Virus record (IMG/VR): IMGVR_UViG_3300047476_000577
Coordinates: 1-64,000 of that record
Length of the DNA stretch: 64,000 nucleotides
Source of the DNA: a virus
Strand: one strand, 5' to 3'
Shown here one piece after another: positions 6,892-64,000 of this stretch. The notes under the pieces were generated by a model. It worked only from the letters and a program-made list of their open reading frames with translations. It searched no databases and was not told where the DNA came from. The first letter of the stretch is position 1. Every line of letters begins with the position of its first letter. The position numbers and the translations under genes were made by a program.

Positions 6892-8865
6892 ATGGCAAAG
6901 TCTACATTAGCAGGTCAGGTAAGGGAACAGTATAAAGACGGATCAAGCGGCAGGATTAACCTAGCAGCAGGCCTCTACTTGGCTATTGTAAAAGATACAG
7001 TAGACGAGCAAAAACAAGGTCGCATACGTGTATGGGTTCCGGAATTTAAAAGCAATCCAGAAGATGAAACTAGTTGGCTAACTGTTAGCTATTGTAGTCC
7101 GTTTGCCGGCGCAACAGATCCATTCAAGCTAGGCAGCAACGTACAAGAGTTTAGTGACACACAAAAGTCGTACGGATTTTGGTTTACATTACCCGATGTT
7201 AACAACGAAGTTTTAGTAGCTTTCCCTAGTGGTGATTTAAGCAGGGGTGTATGGTTAGGCAGTTTATTTCAAGCAGCTAGTAGTTATGCTGTTCCTGGTA
7301 TTGCGTATGGTAATACATATGGAGAACAGAAGAACGAATACTATCCTAGCGCAGAAAAGAATAAGAAAGATACAGACGGTAACGATGATCTGCGCCCTAA
7401 GCATACTACACTAGGTACGGCACTAAACCGCCAAGGTCTACTGTCGGACTTAACTAGGGGCGCAGGCACTAGCAGTTCTATGCGAGAAAGTCCTAGTCGT
7501 GTGTTTGGTATTCTTACACCCGGCCAGCATCAGTTTGTTATGGATGACGGCGACGAAGCAGGCGGCAACAGTTTAATTCGTTTCCGTACAGCAAATGGCG
7601 CCCAGATATTAATTGATGATACACACGGTTTAATTTACTTTGTAAACAAAGACGGAACTGCTTGGTTAGAACTCAATCAAGAAGGACATATAGATGCTTA
7701 TGCTGCTCAAGGTATTAACTTAAATGCAGCAGGAGACTTCAACATACGTGCCGGCGGCAATGTTAACATAGAGGCAGCAGGAGACTTTAATGTAAAGTCC
7801 AATGAAATGCGTATGTTTGCTAATAATACTTTTAATCTAAGTTCAGTTAGCGGAACTAAGTTAAGCACAGGGGGCAATACTGAAATAGGTAGTAGCGGCG
7901 ATCACATCGAAACTGCGGCACACGTGCATATGAACGGACCGTTAGCAGCAGAAGCAACTCCACCTACAGTTAATCAATTACCAGTTAACGTTGTGGTAAG
8001 AAAGAGTATTGCAAGTAGAGTGCCGGAAGCAGAACCTTGGAAAGGTCACGAAGTTAGCGCCAGTACGTTAAGCAGAGGTCAGAGTAGTCAAACTGCGGCA
8101 GGCTCATTAGGCAGTGCAGGCGGCGAAGGCGAACCTAGTGGAGACGGTAAAGTGGTTGATACAAGCGATATTACTCCTACCGAAAATGTTGATACAAAGA
8201 CTTGCACCCCAGTAGGAACACTACACGTTAGTAAGAATATTGTAGATTACATTATTGCTAAAGAGCGCTGGCGTCCTGTAGAGTACTGGGACTTTAGAAG
8301 CAACAGTATCGGATTCGGACATTTACAGGATGGCAAGAGTTATGACAGCCCGACTGAGTTTGACAACGGCTTAGATTGGGATGCAGCTTATAACAAGTTT
8401 TTACAAGACATTAAGAGCTTTGAAAATGCAATTAAGAGTTTGTTTAAGTCTACAAAATGTATGACACAGAACCAGTTCGATGCTCTAGTGTCTGCTGCAT
8501 ATAATATGGGCCAAGGCAACTTAATGAAGTGCAACTCTAGCGGGAAGAAGATAACTGACTTGGCTGCGGCAGGAGAATGGGAAGGTGTTGCAAACGCTAT
8601 AGCAGGTTATCCGCACGAACAAGGCCGCCGCCAAGAAGAAGCAGTTATACTGAAGAAGGGTTACTATCCTCCTAACACTAAGCCTAAAGACGCACTAATA
8701 CAAGAAGGTCTTAAGATTTGCAAGAGCTGGATAGAAGGCAATAGGGCACAAATTAAAGGACCTGCTATAGAAGGCAGACCCGGCGCATTTAAGCCTATAT
8801 TCGGTGCTCCTACAGAACGTCAAAAGAAACAATGGGCAGCAATTAAAGGCAAGTACGGACTATGA
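6892..8865 (+). CDS. 5: Baseplate central spike gp5 with C-terminal lysozyme
   Basis: This 657-residue spike punctures the outer membrane and cuts peptidoglycan. Residues 25-140 are the OB-fold collar (GLYLAIV, QGRIRVWVP, FTLPDVNNEVLVAF). Residues 205-350 form a beta-helix with repeated N-x-x-A-x-G-D-F / G-G-N turns. After a Gly/Ser-rich linker (about 395-420), residues 440-605 are a T4-lysozyme-like muramidase: Glu458, Asp467 and a Ser at 472 where T4 has Thr26, then GFGH. T4 gp5 places lysozyme between the OB fold and the beta-helix; here it follows the helix. Confidence 0.88.
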   Translation: MAKSTLAGQVREQYKDGSSGRINLAAGLYLAIVKDTVDEQKQGRIRVWVPEFKSNPEDETSWLTVSYCSPFAGATDPFKLGSNVQEFSDTQKSYGFWFTLPDVNNEVLVAFPSGDLSRGVWLGSLFQAASSYAVPGIAYGNTYGEQKNEYYPSAEKNKKDTDGNDDLRPKHTTLGTALNRQGLLSDLTRGAGTSSSMRESPSRVFGILTPGQHQFVMDDGDEAGGNSLIRFRTANGAQILIDDTHGLIYFVNKDGTAWLELNQEGHIDAYAAQGINLNAAGDFNIRAGGNVNIEAAGDFNVKSNEMRMFANNTFNLSSVSGTKLSTGGNTEIGSSGDHIETAAHVHMNGPLAAEATPPTVNQLPVNVVVRKSIASRVPEAEPWKGHEVSASTLSRGQSSQTAAGSLGSAGGEGEPSGDGKVVDTSDITPTENVDTKTCTPVGTLHVSKNIVDYIIAKERWRPVEYWDFRSNSIGFGHLQDGKSYDSPTEFDNGLDWDAAYNKFLQDIKSFENAIKSLFKSTKCMTQNQFDALVSAAYNMGQGNLMKCNSSGKKITDLAAAGEWEGVANAIAGYPHEQGRRQEEAVILKKGYYPPNTKPKDALIQEGLKICKSWIEGNRAQIKGPAIEGRPGAFKPIFGAPTERQKKQWAAIKGKYGL

Positions 8866-9075
8866 TCGTGTCCCAAATCGTAGTCCTATAAACAGTGCAT
8901 CGTTCTCATTGGCAAAGTCTACGTAAACACCGTTAGGTTCGTATCTAACACTGTAGTCTTCTATTTTATTTTCTTTGAGAAATTTCCAAATATCTAACAA
9001 GTCTAGGGTATACGCAAGGTTACCCATAACAGTCTTGTCGCTTGCTAGTTCTTTTATCAAGACAGATGCGCTCAT
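8860..9075 (-). CDS. Small LRW-module protein (isolated member)
   Basis: This 71-residue protein of unknown function ends in the module shared with the arrays at 54424-55656 and 60235-64000: a strand (GVYVDF), an acidic turn (ANEND), then ALFIGLRF and a short tail. It is last in the minus operon and overlaps the gp5 end by 6 bases, tail to tail. Its Arg-Phe codons are CGA TTT rather than the AGG TGG common in the arrays, and no gene follows that would need a ribosome site. Its start overlaps the previous stop as ATGA. Confidence 0.75.
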   Translation of the reverse strand: MSASVLIKELASDKTVMGNLAYTLDLLDIWKFLKENKIEDYSVRYEPNGVYVDFANENDALFIGLRFGTRS

Positions 9076-32198: not shown

Positions 32199-33181
32199 AA
32201 ATACCAATTACAGAATTTGACATAGTCTTTATGAGCTATGACGAGCCAAATGCAGATGAGAATTATGCAGACTTGCTAACTAAAGCTCCTTGGGCAAAAC
32301 GCAGTCACGGAGTTAAGGGCAGCGATGCTTGCCATAAAGCAGCAGCAGCCCTAGCTGAGACTGACCGATTTATTACTATTGATGCTGACAACATCGTACG
32401 AGATGACTTCTTTAATATAGAATTAGACGATAGGCACTTCGGCGAGCTTGATGTCATCAGCTGGGCAGGCAAAAACGTAATCAACGGACTAGTATACGGC
32501 AACGGTGGTATCAAGTGCTGGCCAAAGGTAGTTGTAGAGCAAATGAAAACTCACGAAGCCGCTAGCGGTAACAATCCTAGTTCGCAAGTAGACTTTTGCT
32601 GGGACATTAACTATCATCAGATGAACAACGTCTACAGCGATGTACACAACAATGCAAGTCCGTATCAAGCGTATCGAGCAGGATTCCGCGAAGGTGTTAA
32701 GTTGTCATTGTGGGATGGAGTAACAGTTGATTCTCGACAACTTAAAAAACAAGTACACCCTAAAAATTATCAACGACTGCTAGTATGGACTAGTGTTGGC
32801 CGTGATGCTAAACACGGTCTATGGGCAATGTACGGTGCTCGGCTAGGTTGTTACTTAGCTAACTTAAAACGTGATGAGTTTAACTTTGTTGATGTGCGAG
32901 ACTTTGATTGGCACGATCGATACTGGAACGATGTAATTGCAAAACGTTTCCAGGATAATACAGATAGTGCCTGCATCAAGACAGGACACAAGTGGAACAA
33001 ACATCAACTATGGCGTGCTACAGTAGACTTAGGAAATATTCTACGTCAGGAGTTGGATCTAGAAATCGCAGACTTAGACGATATGGGCAGTAAGTTCTTT
33101 AAGGCAACTTACGTTAATCCAAATCGCTTAGGTCCTATGATTAAAGAAAGCCAAGTAATCGAAGGCGTTATCGGTGAGTAA
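32195..33181 (+). CDS. Glycosyltransferase-like protein, family A member 1
   Basis: This 328-residue protein has the signature FDIVFMSYDEPNAD at 8-21, then HGVKG and HKAAAALAETDRFITIDADN (about 48-67) with a DAD metal motif after the strand. The same signature recurs in the genes at 34592 and in the last third of 35274-37580. Middle part: INGLVYGNGGIKCWPK. These are GT-A-like proteins known in T4-like aquatic phages. It overlaps neighbours at both ends by 4-8 bases. Confidence 0.55.
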   Translation: MKIPITEFDIVFMSYDEPNADENYADLLTKAPWAKRSHGVKGSDACHKAAAALAETDRFITIDADNIVRDDFFNIELDDRHFGELDVISWAGKNVINGLVYGNGGIKCWPKVVVEQMKTHEAASGNNPSSQVDFCWDINYHQMNNVYSDVHNNASPYQAYRAGFREGVKLSLWDGVTVDSRQLKKQVHPKNYQRLLVWTSVGRDAKHGLWAMYGARLGCYLANLKRDEFNFVDVRDFDWHDRYWNDVIAKRFQDNTDSACIKTGHKWNKHQLWRATVDLGNILRQELDLEIADLDDMGSKFFKATYVNPNRLGPMIKESQVIEGVIGE

Positions 33182-34592
33182 GGGAATTTACCTGGAAAGG
33201 CTAGAGAAGTTAAAAGCTAGCCTCGACGCAATTAGTCCTAGCTTTTGTGCAGCCAAGTGGAAGCAAGTTACTATACACTTGCAAAACGGCTTGACGCATA
33301 GTTGCCATCATCCATCTACGCATAAAATTCCTATTGAGGAAATTAAAGTTAACCCTAGTGCACTGCACAATACTAACTTTAAAAAAGAACAACGAAAACT
33401 AATGCTAGAAGGCAAGCGCCCTAGCGAGTGCGATTACTGCTGGCGTGTAGAAGACACACCCGGCGAGCATTACAGTGACAGGATTTACAAAAGCACAGAA
33501 CCTTGGGCATATAAGACTATTCCTGACATACTTGCAGAACCTGCAGGCTTTAATACGATACCTACGTATGTAGAAGTAAGTTTCGGAAATACCTGTAACT
33601 TTAAGTGCAGCTATTGCAGCCCCGAGTATAGTAGTAAATGGGTCGAAGACATAGAGCGCCACGGCGCAGTACAAGTCTCTGGTTCTAAATTTAACGATAT
33701 ATCTTATATAAAGTCTAAGGGCTTTATGCCTATCCCCGCTAAGGATCACAATCCTTATATAGACGCTTGGTGGCAATGGTGGCCAGAACTGTACCCTACA
33801 CTGCATACATTTAGGATAACAGGCGGCGAGCCGCTACTTAACAAGAACACATTTAAAACATTGGATTGGATCATATCGCATCCTAATCCTGAACTAGACT
33901 TGGCTATCAACAGCAACCTAGTAGTGCCCGATAATTTAATGCAAGAGTTTATCGACAAGGTCAAGTTCATTGTTGACAATAAACTTGTCAAGCGTATAAC
34001 AGTTTACACTAGTGTAGACACTGCTGGCGAGCACGCAGAGTATATCCGAACAGGTTTAGACTATAACAAATGGTTGGCTAACGTTAATCGAGTAATAAGA
34101 GAGACTGGCGCTTTTATTACTATAATGTCTACGTTCAACTTGTTGAGCTTTACTAACTATAAACAACTGTTAGCCGACATTCTTGTTATTAAGACTGATC
34201 CTACATTGATAAGAACAGGGGCAGATAAGAGTGTAAAGGCGCCACTAACAATAGATATTCCTTATTTGCGTTATCCGGAATTCCTTAGTGCATTGATTGC
34301 CACGCCCGCTATAAAGCAAAAGTTTAGCGAACTAACTGAAATGGTTACTGCTAACCTAGGACATAACGTAGTGCACGGTCATCACTTGGGATTTTACAAA
34401 CACGAAGAGCAAAAGTTTGTTCGTTTACAGCATTTGCTATCTCGCGACGATCACTATAGCCCTACAGACTATGCACGCCATCGTCGTAGCTTTGCAATGT
34501 ATGTAGACGAGATGGATCGCCGCAACGGGACAGACTTTAAAGCAGTCTTTCCTGAATACATTGATTTTTATAATTACTGCAAAACACTATAA
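33174..34592 (+). CDS. Radical SAM protein with N-terminal twitch-type domain
   Basis: This 472-residue protein carries the radical SAM cluster motif CNFKCSYC at 141-148 (CxxxCxxC). A separate N-terminal set of cysteines (C25, C44, and CDYC at 86-89) could bind an auxiliary iron-sulfur cluster. TGGEPLLN near 220 is the SAM-binding GGE motif. The architecture fits the phage group of radical SAM proteins with an N-terminal twitch domain. The reaction is unknown. It lies between two glycosyltransferase-like genes, so a sugar or peptide modification is possible. Confidence 0.78.
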   Translation: MSKGIYLERLEKLKASLDAISPSFCAAKWKQVTIHLQNGLTHSCHHPSTHKIPIEEIKVNPSALHNTNFKKEQRKLMLEGKRPSECDYCWRVEDTPGEHYSDRIYKSTEPWAYKTIPDILAEPAGFNTIPTYVEVSFGNTCNFKCSYCSPEYSSKWVEDIERHGAVQVSGSKFNDISYIKSKGFMPIPAKDHNPYIDAWWQWWPELYPTLHTFRITGGEPLLNKNTFKTLDWIISHPNPELDLAINSNLVVPDNLMQEFIDKVKFIVDNKLVKRITVYTSVDTAGEHAEYIRTGLDYNKWLANVNRVIRETGAFITIMSTFNLLSFTNYKQLLADILVIKTDPTLIRTGADKSVKAPLTIDIPYLRYPEFLSALIATPAIKQKFSELTEMVTANLGHNVVHGHHLGFYKHEEQKFVRLQHLLSRDDHYSPTDYARHRRSFAMYVDEMDRRNGTDFKAVFPEYIDFYNYCKTL

Positions 34593-54399: not shown

Positions 54400-54421
54400 A
54401 GTGTTGTATTTTTGCAACACT
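54400..54421 (-). terminator. Weak hairpin terminator after the small-gene array
   Basis: AGTGTTG / CAACACT with an 8-base loop lies 2 bases after the stop at 54424, followed on the minus strand by TTGTTGT. A weak terminator ending the array at this side is plausible. Confidence 0.5.
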
Positions 54422-54423
54422 AT

Positions 54424-54645
54424 TTAACTGTAACGCAGTGTCCACAGCAGTTTTTCATTCAAATCTGCAAATTTTATACGAATGCCTGCATACTGTGGTC
54501 TTGCATCTTTCGGGTCCCACTCTAGGGTGTACGGCCCCGGGCACTTGAGTTGAAAGTTATGAGTGATAGCGTCTAGCGTGATGTCGTCTAACGGCTCGTA
54601 CGCATAGTGTGACATTATTTCTGACAAGACTTTTCGGTACAGCAT
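54424..54645 (-). CDS. LRW-module protein, 73 residues, last of array 1
   Basis: Starts MLYRKVLSEIMSHYAY at ATG 54645 (TAATG with the previous stop). Unique N-terminal part, then the module: IRIKFADLNEKLLWTLRYS. The Arg-Tyr codons are CGT TAC, not AGG TGG, and no coupled gene follows. A longer GTG start at 54654 overlaps the previous gene and is less likely. Function unknown. Confidence 0.72.
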   Translation of the reverse strand: MLYRKVLSEIMSHYAYEPLDDITLDAITHNFQLKCPGPYTLEWDPKDARPQYAGIRIKFADLNEKLLWTLRYS

Positions 54646-54896
54646 TAGCTCCACCTCAATGCAAACATAGTAGCAACCTCTGGGTCTCTAAAGAAATAGA
54701 TAGTCCTGTGCCCCGGTGTTAGTAAATCGTCGTCAGGATAGCACCAAGCATCGTAGTCATCATCTGCGTTCGGGCAATGGTCTCTTAGCCAGCAAGGTAG
54801 GTATACGATTTTATCGTAAAACTCTATAGGAGAACGGATTATAACTGGATGCCAGCTTTCGACAGTCTCGTACAAATGTCCTTCGTATTCTTTCAT
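54645..54896 (-). CDS. LRW-module protein, 83 residues
   Basis: Starts MKEYEGHLYETVES at ATG 54896. The middle has HCPNADDDYDAW; the module is TIYFFRDPEVATMFALRWS. Arg-Trp is AGG TGG and forms GAGG-type ribosome site 8 bases before the next ATG. Its own start has AAGG 5 bases upstream, inside the last codons of the gene before. Confidence 0.75.
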   Translation of the reverse strand: MKEYEGHLYETVESWHPVIIRSPIEFYDKIVYLPCWLRDHCPNADDDYDAWCYPDDDLLTPGHRTIYFFRDPEVATMFALRWS

Positions 54897-55150
54897 ACCC
54901 ACCTTAATATAAACTTAAATGCTGCCTCGTCGTTGTCAAACCAAAACCTGCTGCCGGTCCACGCATAGTGGTCTTCTCCAATGTGTTCCCCGCACCACCT
55001 ATGTACTTCGGGCCATTTCTTGTGACCTTCCTCGCTTAACAGCGCACTGGGGTAACCTTTGCTATTAAAAGCGTGTCTCCAGTCATAGTCTTGCACTGGC
55101 TCAAACAGCAACTTTGCTTTGATACTAGCAACATACTCTTTTATAGTCAT
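54893..55150 (-). CDS. LRW-module protein, 85 residues
   Basis: Starts MTIKEYVASIKAKLL at ATG 55150 (ATGA overlap). Contains a middle W-rich segment (HRWCGEHIGEDHYAW) and the module SRFWFDNDEAAFKFILRWV. AGG TGG supplies AAGG before the next start. The open frame extends upstream to 55222 but that would run inside the previous gene. Confidence 0.75.
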   Translation of the reverse strand: MTIKEYVASIKAKLLFEPVQDYDWRHAFNSKGYPSALLSEEGHKKWPEVHRWCGEHIGEDHYAWTGSRFWFDNDEAAFKFILRWV

Positions 55151-55656
55151 AACCAACGCAAAGTAAAGTATGCTGCATCTTCCTGACGTTTGAACCAAAT
55201 TTGTCCGTCGGGCCAGCGACAATGGTACTCTACACCCGATTCATCTAACCAGTCTAGCATTAGCTGATGAAGCCCGCCTGATTCGTTAAACGATACTTTA
55301 TACTGCCAAGCACTATAGTTGACTATGGGGTCAACTACAAACTCGGTAGTTAACGTCATTTCGTCAAAGTAAGCCACGCTCCAATCGGGCAATTCTGCTT
55401 GCAAACGCTGGCTAATTTTACGACCCCAATGACTAAAATGCTCAACATTAAAAGCATTATATATGGTTTTATCGCCTATGTCATATGCGTTGGAGTGATT
55501 GTCGTAGTGATCTGTCCATTTTAGTAGCTCATTAAACAAGTCATCGGAAATAGGGATTCTACTAGTATCCATCATTGTATAATCGTAAGCCCATACACCC
55601 GTACTCATATAGTCTGCACAAAGTTTGATGCACTTATTAAGATTTAATTTGCCCAT
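55147..55656 (-). CDS. LRW-module protein, long member, 169 residues, first of array 1
   Basis: This member starts MGKLNLNKCIKLCADYMS and is twice the usual size: an N-terminal domain of about 100 residues unlike the other members, then QLMLDWLDESGVEYHCRWPD and the module GQIWFKRQEDAAYFTLRWL. Arg-Trp is CGT TGG. It is the first of the four-gene array. The N-terminal domain may show what the module is normally attached to. Confidence 0.75.
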   Translation of the reverse strand: MGKLNLNKCIKLCADYMSTGVWAYDYTMMDTSRIPISDDLFNELLKWTDHYDNHSNAYDIGDKTIYNAFNVEHFSHWGRKISQRLQAELPDWSVAYFDEMTLTTEFVVDPIVNYSAWQYKVSFNESGGLHQLMLDWLDESGVEYHCRWPDGQIWFKRQEDAAYFTLRWL

Positions 55657-55702
55657 AATCTGCTTAGTTTGCTCGCGTATTTACATATGTTATCTGAAAT
55701 AG

Positions 55703-55710
55703 TATAAATA
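55703..55710 (+). promoter_or_regulatory. Consensus late promoter box
   Basis: TATAAATA on the plus strand, 40 bases before ATG 55751, with AAGGAG in the ribosome-site position. Confidence 0.8.
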
Positions 55711-55750
55711 CTGCAAGAGCATAAAAAGATTATGCTACAAGGAGAATAAT

Positions 55751-56047
55751 ATGGCATTTACACTAGTTTCTAAAACAGTCAAACCTGCAGAAGCAAAATG
55801 GTGGAACCAAGTCGATCCTGAAGCAGCAGCTCGTGTAGGTGAATTCGTAAAGGCATTCCCTGGCGTAGTTAGCGCAGATGCTAAGGAAATCGAACCAAAC
55901 GTATGGCAATCAGTCATTGTGTTTGAAAGCAAAGCAGTAGTAGAAGAATACAAAGTTGCTATGGCAGCTAATTCCGACAACGCACTACGCAAAGCATACA
56001 ACGCTACACACGGCATTGTAACTAAGTTCCAAGGTCAAGGCGAATAA
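55751..56047 (+). CDS. Small alpha/beta protein, paralogue of 38578-38883
   Basis: This 98-residue protein starts MAFTLVSKTVKPAEAKWWNQ; it has a helix EAAARVGEFVKAF, PGVVSADAKEIEP, and strand VWQSVIVFES, then a helix ending RKAYNATHG. It aligns in layout with 38578-38883. It has a strong late promoter, an excellent ribosome site (AAGGAG), and GC-rich codons, so it may be made in large amounts. It lies against the PP-loop cassette in the opposite direction. Unknown function. Confidence 0.7.
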   Translation: MAFTLVSKTVKPAEAKWWNQVDPEAAARVGEFVKAFPGVVSADAKEIEPNVWQSVIVFESKAVVEEYKVAMAANSDNALRKAYNATHGIVTKFQGQGE

Positions 56048-56066
56048 TTTTTGCTCACTGTACAAT

Positions 56067-56093
56067 AAAAAGGACTCCCAGGAGTCCTTTTTT
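56067..56093. terminator. Bidirectional intrinsic terminator
   Basis: AAAAAGGACTCC / GGAGTCCTTTTT with a 2-base CA centre, between the plus gene ending at 56047 and the minus gene ending at 56092. Runs of A and T let it work both ways. Confidence 0.85.
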
Positions 56094-57192
56094 AATTCCT
56101 GAACGGATTGTCAGGATTGTACCACATATTAGGGTTAACTACTTCGACGGGCTTAAAGTCACTGTCTATGCCGTCTAGCAGCTTGCGCTGGCCAAATACA
56201 GTATACAAGCTAGCCCTTTTAATTTTGTTCTTGTAGTATTCATAGTCCTTGTCGAACTTGAATATATCGTCCTTGGCAGCTTGTTTGTAGTTTTTCCAGT
56301 CCGGAATGATACGCACTTCGGGATGATTAATGCTCCAAATTTGGAAGTCGTCCGAGTGGTAGAAATGGTGCATATAAGTATCGTTCCACTCTGTAGACAA
56401 GTTAGAGTAATACCTAGGAGCAATCAGTGCATACATTCTAAAGTAAACGCTTTGCCACTTAAAGCAGAAATTATACCACCAGAAGAAGTCCGAATTCTTC
56501 TCTATGCTAATTCCGTACTTTCTTGCAGATGCTTCTACGGCATCTACTAACAGTGTTGTCACAGCTTGATCTTTAATTTTACTATCAATGTAGTTGAACA
56601 CCGCAACCTTGCTGTAGTTATTGCTTAGGCTTTCTGCCCCTTTGTTAGCAATATACATCTTCATCAAATCACTACCGAACAGCTGGTCATTAAATTCACC
56701 ACTTACTAAAATCATCGATCCGTCGAATAGCCAAGGTGTGTGCTCTGCATTTACTAGTTCGAAGTTAGGAAGTATATAGTCTTTGTAGAAGTTAGGGTTT
56801 TCGTTTGCAGCTTCTGCACTTGTGATAATTTTAATTTTGTCTTTTAGCACAGACATAGGATAGTTACGCAAAAAGCTAACCATAATCATAGTACTGTCAA
56901 TACCACCGCTCCACATAACGCCTAGTGGTTTTCCTAGTGACTCGCTTAAATCGAATAACTCTTTCGCCCTAGCATCGCAGCAATCTGTATAGGTCATTGT
57001 AGTAGTACGCAATGCAGGCAGCTCACATTTACTGTAGATGCTTTGTGCAACAGGCTGCTTGAACAACTTCATACGGTCATTCATACCTACAGCGTGGCCG
57101 ATAAGTCCGTATACTTTGCTCCATTTTAGTACATCCTTTCTAAAAGAATGATGTACAAATGATAGTGGATTGAAATAATATAAATCGCTCAT
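56092..57192 (-). CDS. PP-loop ATP pyrophosphatase, copy B
   Basis: This 366-residue protein starts MSDLYYFNPLSF at ATG 57192 (ATGA overlap with 57189). PP-loop SGGIDST at 95-101. Clearly paralogous to 40322-41398: W-Y-N-F-x-x-KWQ-(S/A)-V, HFYHSDDFQIW, GEFNDQLFGS (A: GEFSDNVFGS) and the DYEYYKNK end. Both lack a glutaminase domain. Likely an ATP-dependent amide- or thio-forming enzyme; the substrate is unknown. Confidence 0.76.
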   Translation of the reverse strand: MSDLYYFNPLSFVHHSFRKDVLKWSKVYGLIGHAVGMNDRMKLFKQPVAQSIYSKCELPALRTTTMTYTDCCDARAKELFDLSESLGKPLGVMWSGGIDSTMIMVSFLRNYPMSVLKDKIKIITSAEAANENPNFYKDYILPNFELVNAEHTPWLFDGSMILVSGEFNDQLFGSDLMKMYIANKGAESLSNNYSKVAVFNYIDSKIKDQAVTTLLVDAVEASARKYGISIEKNSDFFWWYNFCFKWQSVYFRMYALIAPRYYSNLSTEWNDTYMHHFYHSDDFQIWSINHPEVRIIPDWKNYKQAAKDDIFKFDKDYEYYKNKIKRASLYTVFGQRKLLDGIDSDFKPVEVVNPNMWYNPDNPFRN

Positions 57193-57824
57193 ATAGAACT
57201 GTTCTGCCAAAATTCGCGAGCCATTGCACGTCTAATAGACTCTACTTCTTCTTTTCTAGTTACGCCGTTGATGTAACCCTTCCATTTTTCGGCTAGAGCC
57301 TGGATGCGGAATTTAGTCATTAAGTCTGACTCTAAACGTAGCTTTAATTCTTTGTATGCTTGCTCAACTGGAACTTCTAAGATTCTGGCGTATTCTTCTA
57401 ACATCCAGGTATAGTTCCCTGTTGTAGGATCAGATTGTTGTATTTGTTCTAGTGCAACGTGATCAAACTCTGCCCACCTGTAGCGTGTTTGTCTAGCTAA
57501 AGCCTGTGCTTGAAATGCTTCCCATCGTCCGAATAGTTGTTGTCTGATATTAAGAATATCTCGCATCTGTTTCCAGGATTCGGTAACGTGCTCGTCCGGT
57601 AATAACTGCAACGCATTTCCGTTTGGCTGGTCTAGTGTATAGCAGCCTTGCTTAAAAATCTCAGGATTTAACTTCCCGAAATCAACTGTATTGAAAGGGG
57701 TTAGAACTTTGATAATTGCATCACCGTTGCCCATAACTAGTGCGTTAGCAGTTATGATGCTAGTAGTCATCGTGTAGATACTAGCGTTCTCTAAACTAGT
57801 AATTAAATATCGTTCCTGGATCAT
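57189..57824 (-). CDS. Helical partner protein of PP-loop ATPase, copy B
   Basis: This 211-residue, mostly helical protein starts MIQERYLITSLENASI at ATG 57824 (ATGA with the hydrolase stop). The C-terminal 100 residues share a pattern with 41395-42024: a Y-x-x-x-L-x-V-(E/K)-Q-A helix, MTKFRI / KTEFFRM, and ESIRRAMAREFW / ESIKGLLNEIHRDTF. Each copy lies directly before its PP-loop gene. This suggests a fixed two-protein complex, perhaps with this protein carrying or presenting the substrate. Confidence 0.6.
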   Translation of the reverse strand: MIQERYLITSLENASIYTMTTSIITANALVMGNGDAIIKVLTPFNTVDFGKLNPEIFKQGCYTLDQPNGNALQLLPDEHVTESWKQMRDILNIRQQLFGRWEAFQAQALARQTRYRWAEFDHVALEQIQQSDPTTGNYTWMLEEYARILEVPVEQAYKELKLRLESDLMTKFRIQALAEKWKGYINGVTRKEEVESIRRAMAREFWQNSSI

Positions 57825-58741
57825 ATAATAAACTCCGCTGTCCATTCATAAAGCAGCTCTCTGCTTTTTTCCCAAACACATAAATGAGTTGCATTGGGCA
57901 ACACCTTAAAGTACGATGTACTGACAGGCAATAACTTATATAGTCTGTTAGTCACAAAGTAAGGATTCTCGATATCGTACTGAGATGTAGTAATCAGTAC
58001 TCGAGATTTTAACTCTGCAAACTTGAATGTCTTTAAGTGTTGAATGATGTTAGGGATTTTGCCCAACTTCCAATTGCCAGTAGCAGTGTCGAAACTTCTA
58101 TGATCTCTTGCAAGAGCTTCAAACGCTTGCTCTTTCCACAACGGTTCTCTGAAGTCTTTGCCGGCAGGTTGAGCCGCAGAAAATCGTTTGTCAATCGAAT
58201 CCATACCCACCATTGTATACGGCAACTTCTCGTCGACTTCGACGTAAAAGTTATAACCGCTTGGAGGATCGTCTTTTGCTTTAATCCATTTAGGGTTGAT
58301 GCTGATAATGTTGTCAACAAGTCCGGGATTGAGGACAGAGTACGTTATACACAGCGATCCTAAGTAGCTGAACCCTACTAGCGAAATCTTAGTGGTAGCG
58401 CCTAGTTTATTTTTAATGTAATTGATGGCTGATGTAATGTCCTGGTAGTAGTCCTCGATTGTTAAAGGACTTTTGACTAGTGATATATCTTCTACTAGTT
58501 GTTCTTCTACTGGACTACTTTGTCCGTAACCGCGAAGGTCTATTAGGAAAGCATCTACTCCGGCATCTGCCATATAATCGCCGTAGCTTTTGCTACCCAT
58601 TGCAATACCCATCGTAGACTCTACACACAGGCTTCTGCTATTAAACAATAAGATTGCATTACCCGTGTTAAACTTAGCAGGTATGTGCCGTATATAAAGG
58701 CTAGCAGTACCCGATTCTATAAAATTAATATTTTCTTGCAT
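57821..58741 (-). CDS. Alpha/beta hydrolase
   Basis: This 306-residue enzyme has the nucleophile elbow GFSYLG (Ser125) after KISLV, a preceding DLRGYGQSS loop at 68-76, an acidic residue in ITTSQYDIENP near 260, and His in NATHLCVWE near 290. It could cleave an ester, amide or thioester. It lies between the methyltransferase-like gene and the PP-loop cassette, overlapping both. Confidence 0.78.
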   Translation of the reverse strand: MQENINFIESGTASLYIRHIPAKFNTGNAILLFNSRSLCVESTMGIAMGSKSYGDYMADAGVDAFLIDLRGYGQSSPVEEQLVEDISLVKSPLTIEDYYQDITSAINYIKNKLGATTKISLVGFSYLGSLCITYSVLNPGLVDNIISINPKWIKAKDDPPSGYNFYVEVDEKLPYTMVGMDSIDKRFSAAQPAGKDFREPLWKEQAFEALARDHRSFDTATGNWKLGKIPNIIQHLKTFKFAELKSRVLITTSQYDIENPYFVTNRLYKLLPVSTSYFKVLPNATHLCVWEKSRELLYEWTAEFII

Positions 58742-60197
58742 ATATAGTTGAGAACATATATCTAGAGTTGATGACTTGGATGTCAGAGAAGCCAGCAGAC
58801 TCTAGTGTTTCAAGGTACCATTTTAATGGTTTTGTAGTTAACACTCCTATTAGTGCTTTTTTCTTTTGCTGTATAACTTCTTCCGAAACTCCATTAGCAC
58901 GTTTGAAATCATAATACATTTCTTCCGTTTCCATACTATGATCCATTTTGTCTGAGATGATAACAAAGCCGCCAGTTTGTAAGTTGTCGTAGATGTCTTG
59001 TATATATTGTGCTCGTTCTTGAACAAAGTGCAGAGTCCAGTTAGCTAGTACAACGTTATATGACCCTTGCGGTAGCGTATTGCTTACGGTAACCAATTCA
59101 GGGTACTTGCTTCTGTCAACCATTGCTTGACTATTGTCTACGCCAACAACATCAGTGTATCCACGTTGAATAAATTTATCCATTGTGTTACCTAGAGCAG
59201 AGCCTACATCGATGACTTTAATGTCCTTTTTGCTTTTAAACACTTTACTAGTATAGTCGATGCAAAGGTCGATTACCCTGTTGTAATCGGGAATATGTGT
59301 TTCGGCTTCTTGTTGGAACCTATTAGCAACTGAACCATCGAACACCCAATGTTTATCGACTGGCATAACGTTAGGCATATCTTTCATACGCTCTTTTGCA
59401 GCGTTAATATTAGCCTTAACTAAGTCTCCTACTTGCCTTACGCCTGACTTCTCTGTTTTGTAGAATCTTAGCATATATCTGCTAGGTAATGGATATGTAG
59501 TAGGGCCCGGACGATTGACTAGTGTAGAGTACGAATCGTGTACTGTTTTATCTTCTAGCTGTTCTGGATAAATTAAACCTTCTTTGCTTTGGAAACCTAA
59601 CGACCCTAGGATAATTTTCATTGCATTAGGACTAGGTCTTGACCCAGCACCAGAGAACGCAGTGTTGGCATCTGAGCTGTTGATGTGCTGCTTCTTGATA
59701 ACGTCAATGATAGCAATGTCGGGAGATATCATTGGCCAAGGATAGATGCTGTCTGCAACAATAGAGTAGTCGCAAACCTTAGCTACCCGTTCAAGGAATC
59801 CGTAAGTGTCGAGGAAAGCATATATAACGCCAATCATAACTACAACGTCGTACTTTTTGCCCGCTGCAATCTCATTGTCCAGAAACTCTCTAATATCCCG
59901 TTCTACTATAGAAAACTTATCAGATGACCAATATTTTCCTAGCAACTCTCTACTAGTTGCAGCCATCTGCGGTTGCACTTCGACTCCGGTGTAGTGCTTA
60001 CAGCCTTGAGATAAGACCCACTGTCCAGTAGCGCCCAGGCAGCTACCTAAGTCTAAAACTGTCATTCCGTCTACTAGCCAATCTGGCGCCATTGCTTTAT
60101 GGCGTTTGTCTAGTGATTCTATGGTTACTCTACTGTAGCCTCGGTCTTTGCGTGTATCGTTCTCTACGAACTCTGGATATTGGCTAAAAAAGCTCAT
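58725..60197 (-). CDS. Two-domain methyltransferase with CmoA-like C-terminal half
   Basis: This 490-residue protein has two Rossmann domains. N-terminal: VLDLGSCLGATG (48-59), GVEVQPQMA, and MIGVIYAFLDTYGFLERV at about 121-138. C-terminal: VIDVGSALGNT (328-338), VGVDNSQAM, NWTLHFVQERAQYIQDIYD, and DFKRANGVSEEVIQQKKK (430-447), close to CmoA, the carboxy-SAM synthase, in order and spacing. By my alignment from memory, CmoA Arg199 corresponds to Lys446 here. It might make or use carboxy-SAM, or be an ordinary methyltransferase. A late box and GAGGA precede it. Confidence 0.62.
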   Translation of the reverse strand: MSFFSQYPEFVENDTRKDRGYSRVTIESLDKRHKAMAPDWLVDGMTVLDLGSCLGATGQWVLSQGCKHYTGVEVQPQMAATSRELLGKYWSSDKFSIVERDIREFLDNEIAAGKKYDVVVMIGVIYAFLDTYGFLERVAKVCDYSIVADSIYPWPMISPDIAIIDVIKKQHINSSDANTAFSGAGSRPSPNAMKIILGSLGFQSKEGLIYPEQLEDKTVHDSYSTLVNRPGPTTYPLPSRYMLRFYKTEKSGVRQVGDLVKANINAAKERMKDMPNVMPVDKHWVFDGSVANRFQQEAETHIPDYNRVIDLCIDYTSKVFKSKKDIKVIDVGSALGNTMDKFIQRGYTDVVGVDNSQAMVDRSKYPELVTVSNTLPQGSYNVVLANWTLHFVQERAQYIQDIYDNLQTGGFVIISDKMDHSMETEEMYYDFKRANGVSEEVIQQKKKALIGVLTTKPLKWYLETLESAGFSDIQVINSRYMFSTIYARKY

Positions 60198-60220
60198 ATA
60201 TACGTCCTCTATTATGTACG

Positions 60221-60229
60221 TATTTATTG
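60221..60229 (-). promoter_or_regulatory. Late promoter box for the methyltransferase/hydrolase/PP-loop run
   Basis: CAATAAATA (complement of 60221-60229) lies 23 bases before ATG 60197, with GAGGA between. Confidence 0.6.
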
Positions 60230-60234
60230 AGCAG

Positions 60235-60540
60235 TCAACTGAACTTCAATGCAAATTCAAATAGCAATTCATCGTCAGTGTCATCATTAAAGTCAACCCA
60301 TTGGTCAACAATGATATTAGATACTCCGTCTGTTCGTTTTGGTTCTGCAAAACTGCATACTCCGCCCATAGCCCAACCGCTGCCGTGTATCCATTCATTG
60401 CCACCCGGCTTCCAGTTTTTACTAATAGGGCCTATGTTTGTACTAAGCCAGACTAGTATAGGCGTGTCTGTATATTTGAGCTTTCTGGAATTATTGTTCC
60501 AAGGCTCCCATACATTTCTATTGTACCTAACTCTTTTCAT
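60235..60540 (-). CDS. LRW-module protein, 101 residues, last of array 2
   Basis: This member starts MKRVRYNRNVWEPWN, ATGA-coupled to 60537. It has a Trp/Gly-rich middle (KPGGNEWIHGSGWAMGG) and ends in a divergent module: VDFNDDTDDELLFEFALKFS. The motif residues are LKF with codons AAG TTC; no gene needs a ribosome site after it. A late box for the next transcript follows. Unknown function. Confidence 0.68.
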   Translation of the reverse strand: MKRVRYNRNVWEPWNNNSRKLKYTDTPILVWLSTNIGPISKNWKPGGNEWIHGSGWAMGGVCSFAEPKRTDGVSNIIVDQWVDFNDDTDDELLFEFALKFS

Positions 60541-60767
60541 AAGTCAAGTAAAAATTGTTCTTCTGTAGTCAAGTTAAGTATAAGATTTATCTTACCTTCT
60601 TGCAGCCATCTGTTGATGGTTAATGATATGTATTCGGCTTCGTCGCAGTCGTTAACCTTTACACCTATGCGTTTAAATGTCATACCGTCTGGTCCTTTGA
60701 CCCACGGGTTAACAACTGATATTAGTTTCTTTGGATCAGGTATTCGTACTATAGGTCGTATACTCAT
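60537..60767 (-). CDS. Small protein in array 2 lacking the LRW module, 76 residues
   Basis: Starts MSIRPIVRIPDPKKLI at ATG 60767 (ATGA overlap). It ends NLTTEEQFLLDL, so it keeps an acidic helix but not F-x-L-R-W. It may be an eroded member or an unrelated gene inserted in the array. Confidence 0.6.
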   Translation of the reverse strand: MSIRPIVRIPDPKKLISVVNPWVKGPDGMTFKRIGVKVNDCDEAEYISLTINRWLQEGKINLILNLTTEEQFLLDL

Positions 60768-61036
60768 TTTCCTGCCCACCTTAATTTAAACATCACTGCA
60801 TCTTCTGCAAGCTCGAATGCAACACTGTGGTGTAAGTTAACGTGATTGCCAGTTAAGTTACTGTCCAGCCAAGTGTATATGTCAACTAGTTCAACAATGT
60901 TGGGCTCTTTTTTGTATTCTACTAAATGCCAGCCTTGGCTAACTAGTACCTTACTTAATACTTCTCGGTCGATTTCGTTTTTAATTTCTTCTGCAAGAAT
61001 TTCTGCAAAATCTTGCGACACTGAATCACCGTCCAT
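60764..61036 (-). CDS. LRW-module protein, 90 residues
   Basis: Starts MDGDSVSQDFAEILAEEI. Helical N-terminal half, then VELVDIYTWLDSN and the module SVAFELAEDAVMFKLRWAGK. Arg-Trp is AGG TGG, followed by GCAGGA near the next ATG, giving two possible ribosome sites. Confidence 0.75.
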   Translation of the reverse strand: MDGDSVSQDFAEILAEEIKNEIDREVLSKVLVSQGWHLVEYKKEPNIVELVDIYTWLDSNLTGNHVNLHHSVAFELAEDAVMFKLRWAGK

Positions 61037-61037
61037 A

Positions 61038-61265
61038 TTAGCTCCACCTTAATAAAAATAGCAGCATATCAGATTCTTCTTTGAACTTGATCCAGCCACC
61101 GTGACTATCCCATCCGCTGTGCACGCCAGTATCCGGGTCTGTCCCAGGATGCCCAAATGTATCCCATAGCCAGCCGTATACACTAAGAAACTCTTTTCCT
61201 TGAGGACTATAATACCATTCCCACTTATAATCTCTGTCAGGCCTGTGCTTAAATTTTATGTCCAT
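61038..61265 (-). CDS. LRW-module protein, 75 residues
   Basis: Starts MDIKFKHRPDRDYKWEWYY. Middle WDTFGHPGTDPDTGVHSGW; module GWIKFKEESDMLLFLLRWS. The AGG TGG AGC codons provide AAGGTGGAG before the next ATG at 61036. Confidence 0.76.
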   Translation of the reverse strand: MDIKFKHRPDRDYKWEWYYSPQGKEFLSVYGWLWDTFGHPGTDPDTGVHSGWDSHGGWIKFKEESDMLLFLLRWS

Positions 61266-61449
61266 TACAATGTCCCCATTTTAGCGTAAACATTAGCGCA
61301 TCTCGTTCTTCTAAGCAAACATATATGTATGCTTGTCCTATTTGCCACAGGCCCCAGTTTGTTTCGTCTACGTAACCAGGGCAATGGTCATTGATCCACA
61401 TAAGTTGATCGTGCCACGTAGTAGGACAAGTAATCTCAACACGATTCAT
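61249..61449 (-). CDS. LRW-module protein, 66 residues
   Basis: Starts MNRVEITCPTTWHDQL at ATG 61449 (ATGA). Middle MWINDHCPGYVDETNW; module AYIYVCLEERDALMFTLKWG with a longer tail (GHCNGHKI) that overlaps the next gene. Lys-Trp codons are AAA TGG, and GGGGA follows 7 bases before the next start. Confidence 0.74.
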   Translation of the reverse strand: MNRVEITCPTTWHDQLMWINDHCPGYVDETNWGLWQIGQAYIYVCLEERDALMFTLKWGHCNGHKI

Positions 61450-61706
61450 AACCACCGTAGCTTGAACATTACTGCTTCGTTGTCGTCTTTGATGCTAACA
61501 GTATACATAGGATCTCCGCTGTTAAAGCGATGCGTACAGTCTGCTGTTGGACAATTTGTCTCCATCCACATTTCAAACTCTCTGTCGTCTGCGGGATATA
61601 CCCAGCAGGTCCAACTACGAGGCGGCACCATCGGCCATTGAGACCCGGGGTTGATTGGATCTACACCATTATGGAATTCCCAATGATGCACTATAGTTTT
61701 TCTCAT
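61446..61706 (-). CDS. LRW-module protein, 86 residues
   Basis: Starts MRKTIVHHWEFHNGV at ATG 61706; a longer GTG start at 61718 is possible. Middle REFEMWMETNCPTADC; module YTVSIKDDNEAVMFKLRWL. Arg-Trp is CGG TGG, lying 2 bases before the next ATG with its core GGTGG. Confidence 0.75.
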   Translation of the reverse strand: MRKTIVHHWEFHNGVDPINPGSQWPMVPPRSWTCWVYPADDREFEMWMETNCPTADCTHRFNSGDPMYTVSIKDDNEAVMFKLRWL

Positions 61707-61942
61707 CAAGCAGCCCACCTTAATCTAAATAGCATAATACTTTCTTTACTGTCGAGCAACCACCTGTCATATGCAACTCTTTTACCGCATCCAGTTGTTT
61801 TTACCCAAGCGTCAATTTCTTCAGCTTGCTCGTCCGTTAGCTCAACAAAAGAGTTCCATACCTTACTATACAGACCGTGATATGTTATGGCCTGTTTGAC
61901 CCATATTTTCCTGCGTAACAGTTTAAATGTAAAACGACTCAC
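61706..61942 (-). CDS. LRW-module protein, 78 residues
   Basis: GTG start at 61942 (GTGA overlap with the previous stop), beginning MSRFTFKLLRRKIWVKQ; AAGG precedes it. Contains a helix with DEQAEEIDAWVKTT and a degraded strand (YDRWLLDSKES) before IMLFRLRWAA. Arg-Trp AGG TGG gives AAGGTGG before ATG 61706. Confidence 0.72.
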   Translation of the reverse strand: MSRFTFKLLRRKIWVKQAITYHGLYSKVWNSFVELTDEQAEEIDAWVKTTGCGKRVAYDRWLLDSKESIMLFRLRWAA

Positions 61943-62397
61943 GCCTTGCCCTTGCCGCCGTAGTTTAGTTTTTCCCAAAACTCAAACTTGTGTTCTGCTT
62001 CTTCCCGCAACTTCTTTTCGTGCTCTGCAATACGGCGTGCCCTGCCTTCTTCCATTTTAGCAGTTTCTAATGTTTGTTGCACATCTGCAATAAAGCTAAC
62101 AAGACTTGTAGTAGACAACCGGTTTATTTCTTTGTTCAAGTTATAAATTTCAGTGTCCTTGTCGTCTATATCTCGTTTGTAATAGTCAATGTCATCTCTA
62201 AGTTTGCGGATATAGTCAGCAGGATACAAGTGTTCCCACTCGTATTCGAATGTACAGTCTACTGGATCCATTCCTGCTTCTTCTAACTCTACACGAATAG
62301 TATCATCGTTAATGATAGCAAGTAGGCGCCGAATGACAGGGTCAGTTGACTCTAAGTCAAGTTGGTTGATAAACTCTTTGTTGCTTAGTCCGAGCAT
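61939..62397 (-). CDS. Coiled-coil protein within array 2, 152 residues
   Basis: Starts MLGLSNKEFINQLDLES. Helical, with long charged repeats (IRKLRDDIDYYKRDIDD ... ARRIAEHEKKLREEAEH) and no LRW end. The C terminus is GKGKA. It may be a structural or scaffold partner encoded in the same mRNA as the module proteins. Confidence 0.68.
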   Translation of the reverse strand: MLGLSNKEFINQLDLESTDPVIRRLLAIINDDTIRVELEEAGMDPVDCTFEYEWEHLYPADYIRKLRDDIDYYKRDIDDKDTEIYNLNKEINRLSTTSLVSFIADVQQTLETAKMEEGRARRIAEHEKKLREEAEHKFEFWEKLNYGGKGKA

Positions 62398-62747
62398 TAG
62401 TGTTTCCCCCAGCGTAATACAAAGTTAAAATAATCTTCTTGGTCGCGAATAAGAATACTGTTTTCAAATTTGTGCCACCAACGACTCCACGCATCGGGGC
62501 GTTTGGGGTGCGGCCCGAATTGTTCTTCGCACCACTTGTCTACTGCAAAATAATCAGCAGGATCAAATTCTGCCTGATACCAGTTCCTGCTGAACTTGTA
62601 TTTTGGTTCTTGCTGATTAAGTTTTATTTGCATTTCTTTAAGTATCTTATTTGCCAGGCGTTGAATCTCATCTAACAGTTGTTGGTCCAATGGCGGTATA
62701 GTTTGCCAGGCGTACATACTGTTAATGTCTAAATCTATGTGTTGCAT
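62397..62747 (-). CDS. LRW-module protein, 116 residues
   Basis: Starts MQHIDLDINSMYAWQTI. A helical first half is followed by WYQAEFDPADYFAVDKWCEEQ and the module ENSILIRDQEDYFNFVLRWGKH. Arg-Trp is CGC TGG; GGGGGAA lies 8 bases before the next start. The K/V-D-K-W-C segment recalls other members (W-x-E/C pairs before the module). Confidence 0.74.
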   Translation of the reverse strand: MQHIDLDINSMYAWQTIPPLDQQLLDEIQRLANKILKEMQIKLNQQEPKYKFSRNWYQAEFDPADYFAVDKWCEEQFGPHPKRPDAWSRWWHKFENSILIRDQEDYFNFVLRWGKH

Positions 62748-62965
62748 TATACACCTTGTGCAAGTTTAAACAAAAACATATCGTGCTCGTCTTTGAAGCA
62801 AAATGTAATATAGCAAGCATCGTATCCGCTGTACAATACCTTGCAGGATTCTTTTGGCATATTAATTTTGATCCAGTTACAGTAGTCATCAACTGTTGCA
62901 ACTTTCTTACCATTTGTCTTGACAGATAGTTGATACGGCCAATATTTTTTGTTAAGCACTCGCAT
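62747..62965 (-). CDS. LRW-module protein with altered end, 72 residues
   Basis: Starts MRVLNKKYWPYQLSV. Middle VDDYCNWIKINMPKES; module YITFCFKDEHDMFLFKLAQGV, where LRW is replaced by LAQG. At DNA level AAGGTG is retained just before the next ATG but in another reading frame (CAA GGT G). Confidence 0.72.
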   Translation of the reverse strand: MRVLNKKYWPYQLSVKTNGKKVATVDDYCNWIKINMPKESCKVLYSGYDACYITFCFKDEHDMFLFKLAQGV

Positions 62966-63200
62966 TGCTATATCTCAATTTAAAAATTAAATATGCTTCT
63001 CGATCAAGTAATTCAAAGCCTGCTAAGTTGTCGCCTACATACCAACAGCGAACGCCACTTTCCTTGAGTAGATCTATAGTTGATATTTTAGCATAGTTAG
63101 GATTAGTTTTGTATCGCTTAGTAACCAAAGCAATGAACTCATCACGAGCTTTGAACTGCTCGTATATGCTACAATTTTTTGGGATTAAACTTATTGCCAT
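62952..63200 (-). CDS. LRW-module protein, 82 residues
   Basis: Starts MAISLIPKNCSIYEQFK. Middle contains STIDLLKESGVRCWYVG; module LAGFELLDREAYLIFKLRYS, then a tail NASA that runs into the next gene. Arg-Tyr codons AGA TAT, so no strong ribosome site is visible at the junction. Confidence 0.72.
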   Translation of the reverse strand: MAISLIPKNCSIYEQFKARDEFIALVTKRYKTNPNYAKISTIDLLKESGVRCWYVGDNLAGFELLDREAYLIFKLRYSNASA

Positions 63201-63475
63201 CGCAGTAAAAACATTAATAAATCATCGTGGTCGCGAAACCAAAACGAACTGTTGTTAACAAACCACCTGTCTGACGAAGCAGGCCATTCATTGAGTGGGC
63301 GTTTTCCAAAAGTACTGTAGCACCAGTCTTCCAATTTCAACCAGTCACGCTGTAATTCTTGTTTACTGACCCCGTACGGCACCCACCAGTTTGTACCGCT
63401 AATGTAACTTACATTAGCAACATAATACCTTGCACCGTTTAATCGTTTTTCTTCTGTAGTGAATGTTAAATTCAT
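63191..63475 (-). CDS. LRW-module protein, 94 residues
   Basis: Starts MNLTFTTEEKRLNGARYY at ATG 63475 (TAATG). Middle LKLEDWCYSTFGKRPLNEW, then module SSFWFRDHDDLLMFLLRWQ. Arg-Trp CGA TGG contains the next gene's ATG, an unusual overlap of 10 bases. Confidence 0.74.
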   Translation of the reverse strand: MNLTFTTEEKRLNGARYYVANVSYISGTNWWVPYGVSKQELQRDWLKLEDWCYSTFGKRPLNEWPASSDRWFVNNSSFWFRDHDDLLMFLLRWQ

Positions 63476-63726
63476 TAGCTCCACTTCAGCTTCCATAACA
63501 TAAAAGCCTCGGGCTCGACAACTTCGATTTGGTTGATTTTATAACCTGCTTGGGTACCTTTAATCTCAACTTCAAAGTCCAATTTAAGACCTGCTTCTTG
63601 TTCAAGATAATATTTAAAAGCACGAACGAGGTTAGCATTGCCAATGTTATATTGCCAGTTTGGATCCCAGGCATCGTAGCAGTTGTTTAGCTGATTTTTA
63701 ATTTCTTTTTGATCAACGGTAATCAT
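63475..63726 (-). CDS. LRW-module protein, 83 residues
   Basis: Starts MITVDQKEIKNQLNN at ATG 63726 (ATGA). Helical and beta segments, then the module YKINQIEVVEPEAFMLWKLKWS. Lys-Trp codons AAG TGG; GTGGAG precedes the next ATG. Confidence 0.73.
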   Translation of the reverse strand: MITVDQKEIKNQLNNCYDAWDPNWQYNIGNANLVRAFKYYLEQEAGLKLDFEVEIKGTQAGYKINQIEVVEPEAFMLWKLKWS

Positions 63727-63911
63727 TGTGCCCACCTTAGTGCAAATAGTAACGCATCTTCTTGTTTATCGAAATTAAATGTAACGTGTTGGATTTTATT
63801 AACTACTTCCCAAGTCCGGTTAACGAGATTCATATCGTGTTCAGCCGCCCGATCTGAGCGAGCAGTGCACTCTACTATGTTGTTACATTTAACAGTTACA
63901 GGATACATCAT
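63723..63911 (-). CDS. LRW-module protein, 62 residues
   Basis: Starts MMYPVTVKCNNIVECTAR. Near-minimal member: a short N-terminal strand pair, then VTFNFDKQEDALLFALRWAQ. AGG TGG supplies AAGGTGG, 6 bases before the next ATG. Confidence 0.74.
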   Translation of the reverse strand: MMYPVTVKCNNIVECTARSDRAAEHDMNLVNRTWEVVNKIQHVTFNFDKQEDALLFALRWAQ

Positions 63912-64000
63912 ACGTACCTCAATTCAAACATCATTGCATCTTCTGCTTTTTCAAACCAAAAATCCAATCTAGTACCTTGACTGTGGATTTGATAACTATA
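63908..64000 (-). CDS. LRW-module protein, N terminus outside window
   Basis: The last 30 residues are visible, ending LDFWFEKAEDAMMFELRYV, with the stop overlapping the next ATG (ATGA). Codons AGG TAC give GAGG before the next gene. The array therefore continues past the window edge. Confidence 0.72.
   Translation of the reverse strand, partial: YSYQIHSQGTRLDFWFEKAEDAMMFELRYV

Follow-up and report, generated by a model that had tools for sequence, protein, structure and literature searches.

Why would a large phage carry run after run of tiny genes whose products differ strongly at their fronts and share a common end? The question is raised by two arrays of small minus-strand genes in the first 64 kilobases (kb) of a 104,246-base virus record (IMG/VR IMGVR_UViG_3300047476_000577), and we call these 64 kb, the whole stretch of DNA that was analysed, the window. 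A preliminary description of the window had listed 18 small minus-strand open reading frames (ORFs), credited them with a common end of about 20 residues, and proposed that this end is either a tag or the trace of duplicated genes diverging fast. Our analyses indicate that these genes almost certainly belong to one large, unnamed family of small phage proteins that is organised in arrays, and that the codons of the conserved protein end very probably also act as a ribosome-binding site for the gene that follows. This second use of the codons and the presence of capsid-protein segments on some members had both been overlooked in the preliminary description.

Results

A large family of divergent duplicates

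All 18 ORFs are present at or near the places originally given. A full-domain profile built from other phages only, leaving out this genome (the held-out profile), recovered 14 of them at E<1e-3, namely the genes starting at 8860, 54645, 54893, 55147, 60764, 61038, 61249, 61446, 61706, 62397, 62747, 63191, 63723 and 63908. At the same threshold it found 20 members in the complete 104-kb record, with the next match, at E 0.38, being a non-member. The four genes at 54424, 60235, 62952 and 63475 were assigned by position and/or partial motif alone and are best called degenerate candidates. A profile of the shared end alone (the module), run with shuffled-tail controls, gave 0 false matches per genome at E<1. 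In several cases the true start codon falls inside the ORF as listed and overlaps the stop of the gene before it, so that many of the proteins are shorter than first given.

The family extends well beyond this record. A degenerate DNA pattern for EDAxMFxLRW, run on IMG/VR, returned 50 stretches, and all 52 exact DNA matches lay in the reading frame, with a stop codon 0-5 residues further on. Together with a second pattern this led to 504 unique members from 127 loci plus the own genome, which are divergent duplicates in arrays, mostly 15-30% identical to one another; 624 of the 633 profile matches at E<1 were C-terminal, within 15 residues of the stop. Whole large phage records in IMG/VR (30-519 kb) hold 7-43 members each. 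The first pattern, searched across 85,000 bacterial and archaeal genomes (GTDB), gave one match, which is internal to another ORF and attributable to chance. BLAST of members against cultured phages returned no match even at E 10, a misleading result, since the profile does detect distant family members in cultured jumbo phages, namely in three of the four: Sinorhizobium phage Phosso (PV764938.1) has 53 matches, Agrobacterium phage Atu_ph07 has 7 and Pseudomonas phage Cassandra has 4 (best E 1.4e-10), all annotated as hypothetical throughout the regions viewed. The copies in the cultured Sinorhizobium phage make the family testable.

Conservation at the codon level is strong. Over 56 ortholog pairs the median ratio of nonsynonymous to synonymous substitution rates (dN/dS) was 0.135 and none of the 56 exceeded 1, with similar values in the module and in the rest of the protein. 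Scans of 89 and 64 members against Pfam and PHROG gave no recurrent match over the FxLRW domain, the sole recurrent matches being to gp23, in the N-terminal segment, and a literature search did not find a description of the family. Dozens of genes in one large phage may belong to this group of proteins, for which we found no covering family, fold or paper.

The shared end is part of a predicted compact domain

AlphaFold2 models indicate that the shared end belongs to one compact domain of about 55 residues with the order β-α-β-β-α, of which it forms the last strand and helix (predicted local distance difference test, pLDDT, 85-95). The model of the 61038-61265 protein, computed with an 89-member alignment as input, reached a pLDDT of 85 and a predicted template modelling (TM) score of 0.70, with strands at residues 4-7 and 15-18, a helix at 24-37, strands at 52-55 and 58-61, and a final helix at 64-74. 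The protein at record positions 65105-65461 is predicted to have the same domain (pLDDT about 90-95) behind a poorly ordered N-terminal extension. The roughly 20-residue end noted before is therefore real and C-terminal, but the conserved unit is the whole domain, including the helix with its WC/WL motif, and similarity reaches far beyond the last three or four residues. The nearly invariant residues W32, F61, F70, L72 and W74 are hydrophobic, a pattern expected of a protein core and not of a catalytic site.

No significant match was found in the PDB (best Foldseek E-values 2.6 and 1.9; best profile search E 0.16). BFVD, a library of virus protein models, gave many matches with probability near 1, all of them to uncharacterised proteins from phages that have not been cultured. 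Caudovirales proteins such as A0A6J5T1G0 and A0A6J7WGK8 are among these and have the same predicted fold, with TM scores of 0.76-0.80 over the query; they are entries without name or function and are recognised there neither as a family nor as an array.

The L-R-W codons very probably serve as Shine-Dalgarno sequence of the next gene

The usual codons of the terminal L-R-W, TTG-AGG-TGG, constitute a Shine-Dalgarno sequence for the following gene, whose start codon usually lies 2-8 nucleotides past the W codon and overlaps the stop, as in TGG-TCA-TGA or TGG-TCA-TAATG. The array genes thus combine the two marks of a translationally coupled overlap, a stop/start overlap and a Shine-Dalgarno sequence in the upstream gene. 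Codon statistics, run on loci that had not prompted the idea, bear this out: AGG encodes the Arg of L-R-W in 139 of 225 cases (62%) vs 92 of 1270 (7%) at other Arg positions of the same genes (p 6e-73), and it does so in 136 of 196 genes with a coupled start vs 3 of 29 without one (p 1.2e-9). Where no gene follows, the Arg falls and Lys rises, and F is kept in 88 of 96, L in 94 of 96 and W in 81 of 96 cases. The dependence of AGG on a coupled start, together with the persistence of F, L and W where no gene follows, points to selection at both the RNA and the protein level, with Arg as the L-R-W residue most shaped by RNA. Phosso keeps the end of the fold with LTW/LAW codons that form no Shine-Dalgarno sequence, and across Phosso, Atu_ph07 and Cassandra the last codons are of the LTW, LAW or LKW type and lack the AGG Shine-Dalgarno sequence; since Phosso writes the same protein end in other codons, the protein motif is independent of its ribosome-binding use. 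A single stretch under two selections, for a protein core and for the ribosome-binding site of the next gene, would give an operon the character of a string of exchangeable cassettes. We found no precedent for a family whose conserved end is the ribosome-binding site of the next cassette.

As a separate observation, the record holds 42 minus-strand tRNA genes at about 89.3-103.7 kb, among them tRNA-Trp and tRNA-Arg(CCT), the reader of AGG, which is the favoured codon in L-R-W.

Cassettes are probably gained, lost and reordered

Among 80-90% identical orthologues from different phages, the gene behind was the same in 8 of 32 pairs vs 43 of 54 for large non-family control genes (p 9e-7, from pairs that are non-independent). 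Two loci (L014 and L097) differ by a clean one-gene indel, with the junction inside shared ttgagatgggcatga. DNA identity between paralogues rises from a background of 0.27 to about 0.45, 0.53 and 0.70 in successive blocks of the last 45 nucleotides and drops after the stop. From these patterns we infer recombination within the last 45 or so nucleotides, and a shuffling of cassettes among related phages is likely.

Some members carry segments of the capsid protein gp23

We built a profile from nine true capsid proteins encoded in the same virus records (the capsid profile); among the family members it detects gp23 segments of two kinds. Segment 1, with the signature RK-x-x-P-x-x-x-A-x-x-I-x-G-x-Q-P-M, reached a best E of 1.2e-15 and occurs in the own record on the 65105-65461 member (E 7.9e-7); segment 2, with the signature EAKSRKL...EIDREV, reached 2.4e-9. 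A third segment, from the C-terminal part of gp23, sits on a Phosso member (record positions 113923-114303). In an unbiased search of 342 N-terminal extensions against 1184 large phage ORFs, 12 queries matched at E<1e-3, all of them to capsid-protein ORFs, and shuffled sequences gave 0. Both the capsid profile and the unbiased search thus place gp23-homologous segments in N-terminal extensions of the family, which suggests that some members mimic gp23. They match the gp23 family PF07068 by short segments only (about positions 2-40, 124-193 or 305-354 of 376) and fail the full-profile test for an HK97-type capsid protein; the same records encode the true capsid proteins in separate genes. In a subfamily alignment the 55-residue domain is the same whether or not a capsid segment is attached, so that the segment is an addition to a complete protein. 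We found no earlier example of small non-structural proteins that bear pieces of a capsid protein.

Segment 1 aligns to residues 87-118 of T4 gp23 (phmmer E 0.29 alone, strong through the capsid profile), and it may coincide with the Gol region. The EF-Tu-binding Gol region comprises 29 residues in the first quarter of gp23 and has been described as the most conserved part of the protein (PMC3014915).

Other extensions were less clear. N-terminal extensions with a P-loop (GRQxGKS), carried by L017:3828-4223, L126:1077-1463, L082:2637-3110 and L115:4456-4890, resemble the large terminase in a suggestive but not significant manner (PHROG E 0.0099, profile E 0.041), and we do not claim this relationship; the DNA-polymerase-like DxxSMYP motif in some extensions was likewise not significant. 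In Phosso, a 228-codon frame at 182.2-182.9 kb of PV764938.1 contains an N-terminal gp23 segment (PF07068 positions 9-62, E 4.6e-10) and ends without the FxLRW module, representing a capsid-segment protein of different build.

The arrays and their surroundings in the window

The genes of the arrays, their Shine-Dalgarno sites, the terminator-like hairpin behind array 1 and the solitary member are all on the minus strand. In array 1, the last gene is the degenerate candidate at 54424..54645, which ends in LLWTLRYS, uses CGT for its Arg and has no coupled gene behind it; directly 3' of it, a consensus scan marked a terminator-like hairpin (54400..54421), in a region where the number of hairpins is not above chance. 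The preceding member (54645..54896; 83 residues, end ATMFALRWS; held-out profile E 1.2e-8) starts with an ATG that overlaps the stop of the 54893 gene in an ATGA coupling, and its own L-R-W codons (ttG AGG TGG) include the GAGGTGG at 54651..54657 which, by sequence and codon statistics, is the Shine-Dalgarno sequence for the ATG of the 54424 gene. In the same manner, the AAGGTGG at 54899..54905 represents both the L-R-W codons (ttA AGG TGG) of the member at 54893..55150 (85 residues from the coupled ATG, end AFKFILRWV; E 1.1e-9) and the Shine-Dalgarno sequence for the 54645 gene. The member at 55147..55656 (169 residues) matches the held-out profile in two stretches (E 1.1e-8); its N-terminal half contains a further, incomplete domain copy.

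The last gene of array 2, at 60235..60540, is a degenerate candidate by position alone and ends in FEFALKFS. The 90-residue member at 60764..61036 (E 1e-13) bears an N-terminal segment resembling the spine helix of gp23 (DFAEILAEEIKNEIDREVL; PF07068 E 0.0036, capsid profile E 7.6e-4), and is followed in coordinate order by the modelled 75-residue member at 61038..61265 (E 1e-12), a member ending DALMFTLKWGHCNGHKI at 61249..61449 (E 6.9e-8), an 86-residue member at 61446..61706 with orthologues in six other loci (cluster C7; E 1.7e-9), and a member at 61706..61942 whose GTG start is taken from a GTGA overlap (E 8.4e-6). A coiled-coil-like, 152-residue gene at 61939..62397 lies inside the array without belonging to the family, as it lacks the module at its end and has no profile match. 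Beyond it are a 116-residue member at 62397..62747 (E 9.6e-10), a member of the KKYWPY type at 62747..62965 with its end altered to LFKLAQGV (E 1.2e-5), a degenerate candidate at 62952..63200 (LIFKLRYSNASA) assigned by position and partial motif, a 94-residue member of the NGARYY type at 63191..63475 (E 2.5e-10), related to an orthologue set of the HGARYY type among the loci, and a degenerate candidate at 63475..63726 (AFMLWKLKWS; E 9.7 only). The AAGGTGG at 63732..63738 supplies the L-R-W codons of the 62-residue member at 63723..63911 (E 2.1e-9) and the Shine-Dalgarno sequence for the 63475 gene. The 3' end of the next member occupies 63908..64000, and by sequence and held-out profile array 2 runs on past the window to record position 66324, including the member with the gp23 QPM segment at 65105-65461. 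Promoter and terminator scans near the arrays gave about chance level, with the single exception of a promoter and hairpin between genes. Array 2 has few gaps of any size, and one of them carries, at record positions 64430-64479, a strong sigma-70-like promoter (TTGACC-17-TATAAT) with a hairpin behind it.

A solitary member at 8860..9075 (E 3.3e-4) adjoins a T4-type, gp5-like baseplate gene (6892-8865), and a virion gene near the latter has distant relatives, at 22-24% identity, among cultured jumbo phages (PA5oct and Atu_ph07, for example). Between the arrays (56092-60197) are genes for a protein with an SGGIDST motif, a small protein, an alpha/beta hydrolase and a tandem methyltransferase; the SGGIDST protein appears asparagine-synthetase/PP-loop-like by eye and has no Pfam match. 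A plus-strand block of large genes includes a Radical SAM-domain protein (33174-34592) and one reading frame of 3045 residues (17542-26679). An Rfam scan of the window gave no match.

Discussion

Taken together, the explanation that we favour, with some reserve, is that the arrays are sets of cassettes for interaction proteins used at infection time, some of which mimic the capsid. Each protein would consist of one compact domain (a strand, a helix ending in WC/WL, two strands and the final DAxxFxLRW helix) with a variable surface and sometimes an N-terminal extension. The gene ends, L-R-W written as TTG-AGG-TGG followed by one residue and the stop, would form the Shine-Dalgarno sequence and the overlapping start of the successor in polycistronic arrays. 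Because the ribosome-binding site for a gene is supplied by the cassette before it, translation would be preserved in whatever order the cassettes are joined, and single cassettes could be gained, lost or reordered because their conserved last 45 or so nucleotides offer a natural place for recombination. We infer that the products act as accessory proteins during infection, in host takeover or counter-defence, with the domain as a scaffold whose surface and N-terminal bait vary; that their function is directed at the host has, in our estimate, an even chance. A subset would display segments of the phage's own gp23 and thereby compete for, or engage, gp23-binding factors such as EF-Tu, capsid-sensing defence systems or assembly partners.

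Capsid proteins are known triggers of defence (PMC9712102), and capsid segments on small non-structural proteins bear on how phages cope with capsid-sensing defences. The gp23-like members may be decoys for such sensors, may act on EF-Tu or may have a role in assembly, although the decoy is a tentative and rather unlikely proposal. Equally doubtful is a wider scheme in which the family is a modular display system, an adaptor domain with exchangeable baits (three gp23 segments and perhaps a terminase-like P-loop) that would blunt or misdirect host sensors or seize EF-Tu via the Gol-like segment, with the C-terminal codons as a universal linker and the bait set rewritten by recombination.

Several points weigh against our explanation. 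Array promoters could not be placed with confidence by the promoter and terminator scans. The neighbour comparison draws on non-independent pairs, a stricter count of family-family adjacencies gave 198 conserved and 164 changed, and only 4 clean events of the type X-Y-Z / X-Z were found. Most members have no detectable bait, and mimicry is therefore not the function of all. Since the Phosso members lie in smaller clusters and lack the AGG feature, dual coding would be a trait of a lineage. Moreover, it is common in phages for an upstream gene to contain a Shine-Dalgarno motif, and what is unusual is only their coincidence with a conserved protein end.

Among other explanations, a role in head assembly fares best, even if we consider it unlikely. 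Members with gp23 segments would then be regulators of or competitors in assembly, acting on chaperone, scaffold or portal partners, and the remainder would be minor virion or morphogenesis factors. Three different gp23 segments, each fused to the domain, and the solitary member next to the gp5-like gene would fit such a role, but the arrays are found in accessory-type operons at a distance from the structural block, the many paralogues per phage and the rapid turnover of cassettes are unlike morphogenesis genes, and gp23 segments occur on only about two members in each phage.

The tag reading of the preliminary description holds that a detachable C-terminus, serving as a docking, folding or degradation signal, was attached to unrelated proteins. 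The strict C-terminal position in 624 of 633 matches and the very different fronts would be expected of a tag; however, the predicted structure integrates the module, as the closing strand and helix, into a single compact domain with conserved hydrophobic residues, a W-bearing helix about 40 residues upstream is conserved along with it, and some members extend up to 14 residues beyond the W. On the strength of the structure prediction and the conservation of the remaining domain we rejected this reading, which we regard as improbable, and retain that of divergent duplicates.

Still less probable is that the LRW ending is a mere imprint of the overlapping Shine-Dalgarno sequence without a reason at the protein level. 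The enrichment of AGG, its dependence on a coupled next start and the shift from Arg to Lys where no gene follows are all consistent with an imprint, which would also predict the loss of F, L and W in such genes; this loss is not seen, and the three residues persist there, partly with CGN codons for Arg. Furthermore, F, D and A lie outside the Shine-Dalgarno sequence, Phosso keeps the end without Shine-Dalgarno codons, and module and remainder are alike in dN/dS. A pure RNA artefact was rejected on the persistence of F, L and W, the dN/dS values and the Phosso codons. Finally, that the genes are functionless, decaying duplicates kept by recombination has hardly any likelihood, given that only a few members (54424, 60235, 62952, 63475) look degenerate, while all 56 ortholog pairs are under strong purifying selection, with dN/dS near 1 not seen, and the frames stay open in hundreds of members.

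The cassette explanation can be set beside several known systems. The hypothetical proteins of Phosso, Atu_ph07 and Cassandra have the same domain by profile and also overlapping genes, but their clusters are smaller and scattered compared with the long arrays described here. The host takeover module of the Bacillus phage SPO1 is likewise a dense cluster of mostly small genes (26 in number) that is thought to subvert the host at several targets (PMC6873191); it is without a shared domain or C-terminal module, and neither cassettes linked by ribosome-binding sites nor capsid segments have been described for it, so that the likeness is one of function and not of membership. With respect to the T4 Gol/Lit/EF-Tu system (PMC3014915), the segment on the 65105-65461 protein and its relatives falls in the same quarter of gp23 as Gol, but unlike Gol, which is part of the capsid protein, it would be a flexible extension on a small domain. 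Upstream Shine-Dalgarno sites and translational coupling through ATGA or TGATG overlaps are well known (PMC6728339), and the overlaps reported here are of the same type. Whereas the known cases concern individual gene pairs, here the signal is built into one conserved protein end that recurs in paralogue after paralogue along entire arrays, and this end is retained even where no signal is needed.

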